Virus record (IMG/VR): IMGVR_UViG_3300031857_021885
Coordinates: 1 to 24,314 of that record
DNA from: a virus
DNA: 24,314 nucleotides
Reading direction: 5' to 3' (one strand)
This document shows positions 8,240-18,116 of this stretch, piece after piece. The position numbers and the translations under genes were made by a program. Position 1 is the first letter of the stretch; each line of letters starts with the position of its first letter. Under the pieces are notes generated by a model that worked only from the letters and a program-made list of their open reading frames with translations, was not told the origin of the DNA and made no database searches.

Positions 8240-9466
8240 ATGGATGAACAACCAGGTGGGCTGAAAACGTCCGGAGTTCGCATCAACGTCCGCAATCAGA
8301 GTTCCTATTGCAACACCGTCACGATCCCAAACGCGACGGCCCAAGACGCCTCTCTCAGCTGGGCTGCCAGGGGGCTCTTGGCCTACATGCTGTCGATGCC
8401 GGCGAACTGGGCATTCCACGAACACGACCTTGTTCACCGCAGCCCGCAGGGTCGTGATCACCTGCGCTCGATCGTCAGGGAGCTGGAAGCTCACGGCTAC
8501 CTGGAGCGCCATCAGGCACGAGACGAGCATGGCCGGCAGGCCGCGGCGCAATGGCGGGTCTGGGATCGGCCTCAACACCAGCGGGACACAACGACAGCAC
8601 CGTTGACGGGAAAACCGTCGACGGAAAACCCGTCCACGGACAGATGCCGCGCCACGGCTGCAAAGTCACCGCAGACGGAAAATCCGTCCACGGTCGAAAT
8701 GGCACCGTTGACGGGAAAACCGTCGACGGCTGAACCGTCGACGGAAAACCCGTCCACATACAAAAGAAACAATCTAGAAATAAAACCAATACCCCCCCTT
8801 ACATCCCTTCGGGATGTACCCCCCCACGGGGGGGAGCGTGCTCGAATCGCCGAATCGGGATCAGCCATTCAGCACTCAGATCGAACCCCAACCACGTCCA
8901 ACGGCCAGGACGGCGCGCCAGAGGCCACCAGGAGCGCCAGGAAGGCCGCTCAACCCGCTTCCGCGGCTACTGACACCACCACTGCTGCCAGAGGCGCCTC
9001 AGAGGGCCGCAGAGCGCAGAGGTCTGCATCAGCCCCACTGCCGGACTACGCCGAGCCAGTTCGTCCGCAGCTCGAGGCCTGGTGGCGACTGCGTCGCAAG
9101 CGGCACCGCGCGGAAGCCCAGACCGCACTCACCGCCCGCTCCTTGAGCGCACTGGCCTACGCCCATGAGCTTGGCGTCCTGGAGCCTTTCGCTGAGCTGG
9201 CCGCCGAATCCGGCTGGCTCTCGCTCGGCTTCAACGGCCATCGCGACTACATCGCAAAGCTGGCGGCAGAACGAAGCCTGGATGATTGCTGCAGCCATCC
9301 AGAATCCTGTATGGTCCCCAGGCAGTCGGGGCGTGGCCTTCGCCCTCGCTCGACAACACGACAAGCCGATGCCGCTGAGCGCGCCATCGCCATGTTCTCC
9401 GCCCCTCCTGAACCACCCGGAACATGCTCACCGCTCCCGATTTCATCAATGCCCTCGCCGGCCTGA
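8240..9466 (+). CDS. Phage replication initiator (winged helix, lambda O-like layout)
   Basis: The 408-residue protein begins with a winged-helix domain (about residues 15-112): LSWAARGLLAYMLSMPANWAFHEHDLV, then GRDHLRSIVRELEAHGYLER. This is the HTH_36-like pattern of many phage and plasmid initiators. Residues about 114-175 are a repeated TGKPSTENPST segment whose DNA is the iteron array. A Pro/Thr/Ser/Ala-rich linker follows, and residues about 270-350 form a second domain (EPVRPQLEAWWRLRRKRHRAE, ESGWLSLGFNGHRDYIAKL) resembling the C-terminal helicase-recruiting region of such proteins. It would bind the embedded origin and load the host helicase. No clear ribosome binding site precedes ATG 8240. 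Its 3' end overlaps the next gene by 43 bp. Confidence 0.75.
   Translation: MDEQPGGLKTSGVRINVRNQSSYCNTVTIPNATAQDASLSWAARGLLAYMLSMPANWAFHEHDLVHRSPQGRDHLRSIVRELEAHGYLERHQARDEHGRQAAAQWRVWDRPQHQRDTTTAPLTGKPSTENPSTDRCRATAAKSPQTENPSTVEMAPLTGKPSTAEPSTENPSTYKRNNLEIKPIPPLTSLRDVPPHGGERARIAESGSAIQHSDRTPTTSNGQDGAPEATRSARKAAQPASAATDTTTAARGASEGRRAQRSASAPLPDYAEPVRPQLEAWWRLRRKRHRAEAQTALTARSLSALAYAHELGVLEPFAELAAESGWLSLGFNGHRDYIAKLAAERSLDDCCSHPESCMVPRQSGRGLRPRSTTRQADAAERAIAMFSAPPEPPGTCSPLPISSMPSPA
8599..8759 (+). repeat. Iteron array inside the initiator gene (putative origin)
   Basis: Nine copies of an 11-bp unit NCCGTSSACGG lie here. They start at 8599, 8614 and 8629, then 8668 and 8683, then 8704, 8719, 8734 and 8749 (the last and the 8668 copy are degenerate). 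Within each cluster the start-to-start distance is exactly 15 bp, with 4-bp spacers, mostly AAAA or GAAA. The central CCGTCGACGG is a perfect 10-bp palindrome in three copies. In-gene iterons next to an AT-rich stretch are the layout of lambda-type phage origins. Confidence 0.7.
8757..8838 (+). other. AT-rich unwinding candidate and hairpin of the origin
   Basis: Immediately after the iterons, about 36 bp (8757-8792) are roughly 78% A+T in an otherwise very GC-rich region. Next is a perfect 8-bp stem hairpin (TACATCCC-TTC-GGGATGTA, 8800-8818), flanked by a C7 run before it and C7/G7 runs after it. The layout suggests a duplex-unwinding element followed by a structured priming or helicase-loading site. 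It is all coding sequence of the initiator. Confidence 0.55.
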
Positions 9467-16565: not shown

Positions 16566-17018
16566 ATGTCTGAGCTCATTCCTGCCAACGGCTCACCTCC
16601 TAGAAAATGGACCGCCAAGCGCATCGCGATCTCCGTCCTGAAGTTCTATGGCGCCTGCCTGGTGATGGTCAGCGGCATCTCGCTGTCGTTCTGGCTGATC
16701 TACCTCGTCGCGGTCAGGATCCACCCGCAGGGCAGCGCCGCCAGCTCGAGCACCAGCGCTGCAGATGGCAGCCGCCTTCCTGAGGTGGGCAGCACCACCT
16801 TCATCGGTCGCACCAACTGCGACCGGGCCGTAAAGGCGATCCTCCGTGACCCTGGCAGCTACGAACGCATCAGCGCCCAGATCGTCGACGTCAAGCCAGG
16901 CGCCGGCTGGGCTGCCCAGGTGGATTTCCGATCCCGCAACGGCTTTGGTGGTTACGACCAGGGCACTGCCTACTGCGTGTTCAACGGCAGCGAGTACCGG
17001 GCCCTGATGGAGGAGTGA
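16566..17018 (+). CDS. Membrane-anchored protein with extracytoplasmic domain
   Basis: The 150-residue protein has a basic N-terminus (PPRKWTAKR), one long hydrophobic span (about residues 22-52) and a Ser-rich linker. A soluble domain follows (about 75-150) with two cysteines (GRTNCDRAVKAILRDPGSYERISAQIVD; VDFRSRNGFGGYDQGTAYCVFNGSEY). The 'LRDPxSYxxIS...FRxxNxFGGY...aYC.F' pattern recalls a common small secreted or membrane-anchored family of unknown function. Orientation is probably N-terminus inside with the Cys-containing domain outside, where a disulfide could form. Confidence 0.6.
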   Translation: MSELIPANGSPPRKWTAKRIAISVLKFYGACLVMVSGISLSFWLIYLVAVRIHPQGSAASSSTSAADGSRLPEVGSTTFIGRTNCDRAVKAILRDPGSYERISAQIVDVKPGAGWAAQVDFRSRNGFGGYDQGTAYCVFNGSEYRALMEE

Positions 17019-17023
17019 TGCTT

Positions 17024-17050
17024 CCCGTCCACGGTTGATCCGTCGACGGG
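17024..17050 (+). repeat. Second, non-coding iteron pair (origin-like sites)
   Basis: Two 11-bp units, CCCGTCCACGG (17024-17034) and TCCGTCGACGG (17039-17049), match the origin iterons and are spaced by exactly the same 15 bp with a 4-bp gap. They lie 6 bp after the 16566 gene's stop and about 205 bp before the KilA-N start, outside any convincing gene. The pair can also fold into a stem with one C-C mismatch, so an RNA hairpin is the alternative reading. Confidence 0.6.
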
Positions 17051-17165
17051 TCGTAGCCTCCTGCAGCCGGGTCGGCGCGGATACAACACCCGTGAGGGGA
17101 AGCAGCGCAGGGGTGGGGGTGCCGTCGGTCGCCCCCTGCAACCCCACTGGAGGCCCGGCACCCTC

Positions 17166-17196
17166 TTGACCGCAGCGCAGCCGCTGTGCTTATGCT
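17166..17196 (+). promoter_or_regulatory. Candidate sigma-70-type promoter of the KilA-N gene
   Basis: TTGACC (17166-17171) and TTATGC/TATGCT (17190-17196) have 18-19 bp between them. They are followed by a leader with two small hairpins (CCTGCTG/CAGCAGG and CCCGC/GCGGG) before the KilA-N ATG at 17256. The region just upstream (about 17115-17163) is also self-complementary (GGGTGCCG with CGGCACCC). Confidence 0.4.
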
Positions 17197-17255
17197 GCAT
17201 CGACCTGCTGGCAGCAGCAGGGGCACCGACCGCCCGCCCTGAGCGGGAACACACC

Positions 17256-18116
17256 ATGAACAGCTCACTCTCCCCCCTGGGGATGGATTGCCGCATCTGG
17301 AACGGCGTGGAGATCCAGCGCCGGCCCAGCGATGGCTACGTGAACGCCACCGCCATGTGCAAGGCCAATGGCAAGCATCTGCCGCACTACATGGCGAACG
17401 AGCGAACCGGCCAGTATTTGCGGGCTCTTTCGGGGTCCGTCGGAATCCCGACCGACCTCCTCAAGCAGACCATCACCACCGGCCTGAACCACCTGCGCGG
17501 CACCTGGATCCATCCCCGTCTTGCCGTGGATCTGGCCCGCTGGATCAGCCCGGCCTTTGCCGTCTGGATGGACGGCTGGTTCCTCGAGGCCGCAGCCTGC
17601 CAACAGTCCCAGGTGCGGGACACTCAACCCGTCGCCCAGCCGATCGCCAGACCGGAACCCACCACGGTGCTGACCGCGCCGGGCAACTGGTGCCGCCTGG
17701 TAGACGACTACGTCGACACCGTCGAGGACGGCATGGCCGATGTGCCCTTCGCGCAGCGGCGTCGCTCGATGCGCTTTGCCCGGCCCCTGGCCACCCACTT
17801 CATGCAGTGGATGATCGATCACCATGCCCGGCTGGAGCTGCCAGGTCCCGCCGCTCAGCCCCTGCCCCGTCACCAGCAGGCTCAGCTGGTAAGCACCGCA
17901 CCCAACACGCCGGCAGCAACCGAGATCCTCACCGGACCGGAGCTGGCGCGCCGGCTCAACATGAGCCGCCAGATGGTCAGCTACTGGGCCCGTCAACAGC
18001 CGATCGGGGCAGAGTTGCATGGTTGGCGCCTGATCGGCCGCGGCAAGCGCTTCTCACAGGAGCTTGGCTATCCCGTGCCGCCCGGCCCGCCAAGCTGGCT
18101 GTTCCAGCGTGCATGA
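17256..18116 (+). CDS. KilA-N domain protein with C-terminal HTH
   Basis: The 286-residue protein starts at ATG 17256. A KilA-N DNA-binding domain (about residues 10-115) is clear: GVEIQRRPSDGYVNATAMCKANGKHLPHYMANERTGQYLRAL, then GTWIHPRLAVDLARWISPAFAVWMDGWF. After a linker and a helical region, residues about 230-275 form a second helix-turn-helix (EILTGPELARRLNMSRQMVSYWARQ...GWRLIGRGKRF) of the excisionase/MerR-like type. KilA-N proteins act as phage regulators or antirepressor-like factors. Two DNA-binding modules plus iteron-like sites in the upstream spacer suggest control of phage gene expression or replication. Confidence 0.85.
   Translation: MNSSLSPLGMDCRIWNGVEIQRRPSDGYVNATAMCKANGKHLPHYMANERTGQYLRALSGSVGIPTDLLKQTITTGLNHLRGTWIHPRLAVDLARWISPAFAVWMDGWFLEAAACQQSQVRDTQPVAQPIARPEPTTVLTAPGNWCRLVDDYVDTVEDGMADVPFAQRRRSMRFARPLATHFMQWMIDHHARLELPGPAAQPLPRHQQAQLVSTAPNTPAATEILTGPELARRLNMSRQMVSYWARQQPIGAELHGWRLIGRGKRFSQELGYPVPPGPPSWLFQRA

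Follow-up and report, generated by a model that had tools for sequence, protein, structure and literature searches.

What reads a pair of iteron-like sites that lies outside genes, upstream of a KilA-N gene and 8.3 kb from the nearest other iteron? In the window, the 24,314-bp stretch of viral DNA analysed here, the pair occupies the non-coding interval between the stop of an ORF at 16566-17018 and the KilA-N start at 17256. The features of the pair, of the gene behind it and of the initiator region are as follows.

17025..17034, + strand: iteron-like unit 1, CCGTCCACGG, found by motif search of the window and identical in three related contigs.
17040..17049, + strand: iteron-like unit 2, CCGTCGACGG, a perfect palindrome that starts 15 bp after unit 1 (motif search, shuffles).
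17024..17050, + strand: possible RNA hairpin of 10 pairs with one C-C mismatch and the loop UUGAU, not followed by a T-run (fold -19.6 kcal/mol, z -3.8).
17256..18116, + strand: KilA-N domain protein of 286 aa (Pfam PF04383, E 1.4e-20).
8240..9466, + strand: replication initiator with an N-terminal winged-helix domain (PHROG replication initiation, E 1.8e-17).
8600..8744, + strand: seven CCGTNNACGG iterons within the initiator gene, most in 15-bp phase (motif search).
8753..8792, + strand: 40-bp segment with the highest AT content in the window (72%), a candidate unwinding element (AT scan).

The pair has the layout CCGTCCACGG-N5-CCGTCGACGG (17025-17049) and equals the iterons of the initiator gene in both unit and start-to-start spacing (15 bp); its spacer, TTGAT, is unlike those between the initiator-gene iterons. 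Nine copies of the motif CCGTNNACGG are present in the window, where 0.39 would be expected and 100 shuffles gave at most three; seven of them lie in the initiator ORF, two at the pair and none elsewhere. When the whole record was searched for the paired pattern at 15-bp spacing with two mismatches allowed, only the initiator gene and the site upstream of KilA-N were returned, without random scatter, and the 100 shuffles gave no match. Positions, counts and shuffles thus confirm what the sequence-only reading had described, namely two origin-iteron-like units in 15-bp phase, outside genes and 8.3 kb from the others.

Because the AT peak of the window (40 bp from 8753) lies directly behind the iterons, the replication origin probably sits inside the initiator gene. 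This recalls phage lambda, whose origin has its iterons inside gene O (PMC6022878): here too, seven sites (8600-8744) lie inside the initiator gene with AT-rich DNA behind them. Unlike at ori-lambda, a further pair with the same unit and phase is found 8.3 kb away at 17025, in non-coding DNA, with two units only and no AT-rich DNA. A PDB search with the initiator N-terminus gave no significant match.

A search for the strict pair through about 2.9 million IMG/VR contigs yielded 30 stretches, about 20 of them within initiator genes, three being copies upstream of KilA-N in relatives of the window and the remainder scattered. The iteron is carried by about 19 divergent phage initiators with a window-like winged-helix N-terminus (E 1e-10 to 1e-68), and this domain lies just upstream of the iterons in every such gene, including distant ones (31-43% identity). 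Among these initiators the iteron DNA is read in two frames, giving ENPST/GKPST-type (PST) repeats in one and VDGK-type repeats in the other (contigs L009, L016 and L025). That one motif appears in two reading frames and is tied to one protein domain means that it is the DNA site, and not the peptide, that has been conserved. The comparison therefore supports the earlier proposal that the iteron is read as DNA, a signal in itself and not a by-product of a peptide repeat, and it supplies a putative DNA-binding code for a widespread initiator domain.

The sequence-only reading had overlooked a structured RNA (17066-17159) that the pair abuts. Its features, and those of the leader that it may target, are given below.

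17066..17159, + strand: structured antisense-type RNA, sRNA-Xcc1-like, with stems P1 (17066-17073/17152-17159), P2 and P3 (Rfam RF02221, covariation).
17081..17101, + strand: conserved RNA core, ATACAACACCCGTGAGGGGAA (Rfam match, core scan of viral contigs).
17120..17131, + strand: P3 loop, in which GTCGGT at 17124-17129 complements the KilA-N leader (loop-leader comparison).
17225..17230, + strand: ACCGAC, predicted loop target, 31-26 nt before the KilA-N start codon, co-changing with the loop in sister phages.
17054..17059, + strand: TAGCCT, candidate -10 element of the antisense RNA, proposed from inspection of the sequence.
17166..17196, + strand: candidate KilA-N promoter, TTGACC (17166-17171), 19 bp, TATGCT (17191-17196), likewise proposed, with a spacing outside the 16-18 bp of our promoter scan.

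The Rfam model RF02221 (sRNA-Xcc1) aligned over its full length (positions 1-87 of 87) to 17065-17148, with 31.2 bits and E 0.0015 over all Rfam. Because this score is under the gathering threshold of 53 bits, the window RNA is classed by sequence as a relative of sRNA-Xcc1 and not as a member. With sRNA-Xcc1 (PMC2996969) it shares the closing stem, the three-stem structure with the ATACAA-ACCCG-GGGGAA core, the length and the place upstream of a gene; it differs in its lower score and in a longer P3 hairpin. Relatives from proteobacterial phages score above the threshold (59.6-85.3 bits), and the cyanophage-type RNA of contig L246 matches the family with 38.2 bits (E 2e-5). Over ten cyanophage-type sequences the structure is paired in 97.4% of cells, with double changes at 11 of the 27 pairs, and pairing collapses once the structure is slid along the alignment. 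The fold z-score by itself is unremarkable (-0.9); the case for the RNA, drawn from sequence comparison, is one of covariation and homologues and not of fold energy. The stretch 17020-17034 (GCTTCCC...ACGG) complements CCGTGAGGGGAAGC of the RNA core (17091-17106) and tolerates an indel-like change in the related contig L035, which may represent a refolding switch on read-through. No tRNA or tmRNA was found by search, and the NiCo riboswitch and other minus-strand Rfam matches were discarded because their E values are at chance level.

The core ATACAANACCCGNNNGGGGAA recurs in at least 120 viral stretches, several of them above the Rfam threshold, and the following gene begins, as a rule, some 100-180 nt past it. 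Among 49 downstream proteins, the Pfam domains found were KilA-N (10), Rha (7), AntA (5), ORF6N (5), P22_AR_N (4) and Bro-N (2). In Xanthomonas integrons, sRNA-Xcc1 is reported upstream of symE (PMC12444791), a placement that by analogy fits the rule that the RNA would be encoded just before its target. In contig L176 (2288-2842), two tandem sRNA-Xcc1-type RNAs each precede their own antirepressor-like gene with a matching leader.

The loop of the RNA appears to be matched to the leader of the gene that follows. At 40 divergent loci, the 3' hairpin region of the RNA was compared with the leader of the next gene: the longest stretch of exact complementarity averages 7.0 nt for true pairs and 4.9 nt for mismatched ones, and the observed sum was not attained in any of 20,000 permutations. 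The complement usually spans the ribosome-binding region of the next gene. For six cyanophage-type RNAs, the only one of 720 permutations to reach the observed sum is the true pairing itself. Loop and KilA-N leader also co-vary across three sister phages, in the same loop and at the same -31/-30 position: GTCGGT/ACCGAC in the window, GTCTGG/CCAGAC in L035 and GAGAGA/TCTCTC in L039. Matches are 6 nt long in Synechococcus phage S-SRP02 and in contig L134, and 9 nt in L246. Taken singly, each 6-nt match is short, and the longest unrestricted complement in the window is a different 7-mer; at the sequence level, it is co-change and not length that carries the window's loop match. In L246 (633-1098), the 9-nt match lies just before the start of a small gene of unknown function instead of KilA-N, which means that this type of RNA is not confined to a single kind of gene.

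These properties suggest that the RNA at 17066-17159 may work like the c4 antisense RNA of phage P1, from which we infer the mechanism by analogy. Like c4 of phages P1/P7 (Rfam RF01695; PMC12197685, PMC8546580), the RNA is small and structured, lies ahead of an antirepressor-type gene (here KilA-N at 17256; KilA-N, Rha, AntA, ORF6N or P22_AR family-wide) and has a loop complementary to the target leader near the ribosome-binding site; in the window this is the 6-nt match at -31 to -26. As in P1/P7 heteroimmunity, loop and target differ between sister phages. Unlike c4, the locus has a separate candidate promoter between the RNA and the target gene, so that the RNA would act in trans, and the iteron-like pair in front of the RNA is new. 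The likeness is one of working only: RF01695 has no match in 16900-17400 up to E 10, and we do not assign the RNA to the C4 family. Within the literature, which we covered incompletely, we met no description of sRNA-Xcc1 RNAs as c4-like regulators of phage antirepressor genes. The pair aside, these poorly understood RNAs would thereby gain a testable role as c4-like antisense RNAs encoded beside phage regulator genes, their loops and targets acting as matched, swappable immunity keys.

The KilA-N gene itself varies in step with these elements. Between 17375 and 17500 the DNA of the window, L035 and L039 is only about 50% identical, versus mostly 88-98% over the rest of the gene; the middle of the KilA-N domain has thus been exchanged along with the RNA loop and its leader target, a pattern that immunity types would be expected to show. 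The domain also resembles that of the abortive-infection protein BstA (phrog_6287, E 8.7e-8, a replication-inhibitor family), which likewise has a DNA element beside its gene: aba, which overlaps the start codon and carries terminal CCCGCC repeats (PMC8585504). Unlike in BstA, the match is limited to the KilA-N part (residues 15-105), with an unrelated C-terminal half, and unlike in aba, a single CCCGCC is present in 17200-17310 of the window.

Among the viral contigs and genomes scanned, a pair in front of such an RNA was seen only in the window's clade. The RNA of S-SRP02 is 77% identical and lies directly upstream of KilA-N without a pair, other members of the RNA family, S-SRP02 and L134 among them, have no iteron pair upstream, and neither the other ncRNA loci scanned nor any other viral contig scanned has the pair in front of such an RNA. 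The sole match to pair plus RNA core in 85,000 genomes, in a spirochaete atpA gene, is on the opposite strand and lacks the RNA, and we regard it as chance. A stricter cyanophage-type RNA pattern had no matches in genomes.

The spacing of the pair relative to the RNA suggests how the two may be connected. The element TAGNNT recurs 7-8 nt ahead of the CCGGG of the first stem in the window, S-SRP02, L134 and L246, a position from which the RNA would begin near 17066, with the pair spanning about -41 to -17. A scan for the sigma-70 consensus with 16-18 bp spacing detected no promoter near the pair or the RNA.

The reading we tentatively favour, at a little less than an even chance, is that the pair serves as a DNA operator bordering the 5' end of a c4-like antisense RNA gene, that the RNA controls KilA-N, and that the reader of the pair is most likely the initiator. 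Transcription of the RNA would begin near 17066, driven by a promoter immediately behind the pair with TAGCCT at 17054. The P3 loop of the RNA would pair with the KilA-N leader at 17225-17230 and hold KilA-N translation down. A protein dimer bound to both units would block this promoter, so that the RNA would fall and KilA-N would rise. If the reader is the phage's own replication initiator, the start of replication would be tied to the release of KilA-N. This scheme takes the motif match, the RNA and its family, the loop-target co-change and the association of the motif with the initiator's winged-helix domain from computation, and adds to them a putative promoter, binding event, direction of regulation and reader. 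Of the earlier proposal that the site regulates the KilA-N region, the DNA signal stands, and the key neighbour becomes the c4-like RNA at 17066-17159 in place of KilA-N directly. That the initiator doubles as a transcription switch, turning off the RNA by binding the iteron pair and freeing KilA-N when replication starts, is possible though rather doubtful. It would amount to a direct wire from replication initiation to an antirepressor-type switch of a temperate phage, by way of an antisense RNA. Since this type of iteron recurs across many phages that are not related, the pair could in addition detect the initiator of a competitor.

The relatives that carry the pair bear directly on the identity of its reader. 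The pair is present in four contigs (the window, L038/G004, L039/G001 and L040/G002), always 230-231 bp ahead of KilA-N and on the border of an unchanged block of some 100 bp, identical in the window and the three further contigs. As L039 and L040 do not differ within the stretch compared, the four contigs count as three lineages. G001, a 70.8-kb contig collinear with the window, contains the pair letter for letter and no other CCGTNNACGG. In the same place, its initiator is about 50% identical, with a different winged-helix region and iterons of the CCCC-AA-GGG type, and a search throughout G001 found no second copy of the window-type winged-helix domain. The matching domain is thus present in the window and G004 and absent from G001; G002 is partial, and the initiator region is outside its coverage. 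DNA identity between the window and G001 is about 91% in the KilA-N block and 71-75% in the replication half, so the block may have moved by recombination after the initiators diverged. Either the reader of the pair is a different protein, or the G001 pair is an unread remnant, and for this reason we rate the initiator as reader at less than an even chance.

A different reader would fit G001, where pair and KilA-N occur together without the matching initiator. In such a case the pair would still be an operator on the antisense-RNA promoter, and its reader would travel with the KilA-N block, for example the C-terminal helix-turn-helix of KilA-N acting in autoregulation, with the iteron match reflecting a shared or captured specificity. 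The KilA-N C-terminus is about 95% conserved and has a weak match to HTH_17 (E 0.0032). The KilA-N domain, on the other hand, is a poor candidate, its middle being swapped among the window, L035 and L039 while the pair is identical, and a different reader would leave the match to the origin iterons of the same genome unexplained. We consider this unlikely.

About equally unlikely is that the pair serves as an RNA hairpin, either separating the upstream gene from the antisense RNA, as a stop or an insulator, or forming a leader that refolds with the RNA core. The sequence-only reading had cautioned that the pair can fold with one C-C mismatch, and it can (17024-17034 with 17040-17050, -19.6 kcal/mol); the local fold is strong (z -3.8) and starts 6 nt past the upstream stop codon. 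In the full-length fold the iteron stretch pairs with the RNA core, and GCTTCCC at 17020 complements GGGAAGC of the core, a complement that survives a small change in L035. However, a hairpin needs neither palindromic arms nor equality with the origin iteron, one arm position is mismatched, and the pair is invariant among relatives. An intrinsic terminator at 17024-17050 was rejected, as the GC-rich hairpin is present and the T-run absent, and no terminator-like site was found. A DNA reading of the pair is therefore favoured over an RNA hairpin.

It is less probable still that the pair is a relic with no present role, iteron DNA that recombination copied or carried to a place beside the KilA-N block. 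These phages are mosaic, G001 has the pair without its reader, and an identity of about 91-93% around the pair makes its 25 unchanged bases weak evidence of selection. Against this, the pair is unchanged in four contigs (three lineages), including L035, where the gene upstream has been replaced right up to the pair. A second origin or initiator loading site, the latter suggested earlier and attractive in that sites and phase are those of the origin, is very unlikely and not supported, since the pair has two units only and AT content within 300 bp of it peaks at 45% per 40 bp, versus 72% at 8753 by the initiator iterons.

Two further observations concern other parts of these phages. In contig L163, which has an sRNA-Xcc1-type RNA, positions 2666-2812 match the RT-14 RNA (RF02921) at its gathering threshold. 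In the window, a reverse transcriptase fragment occupies the contig end (1-564; phrog_1423, E 5e-36).
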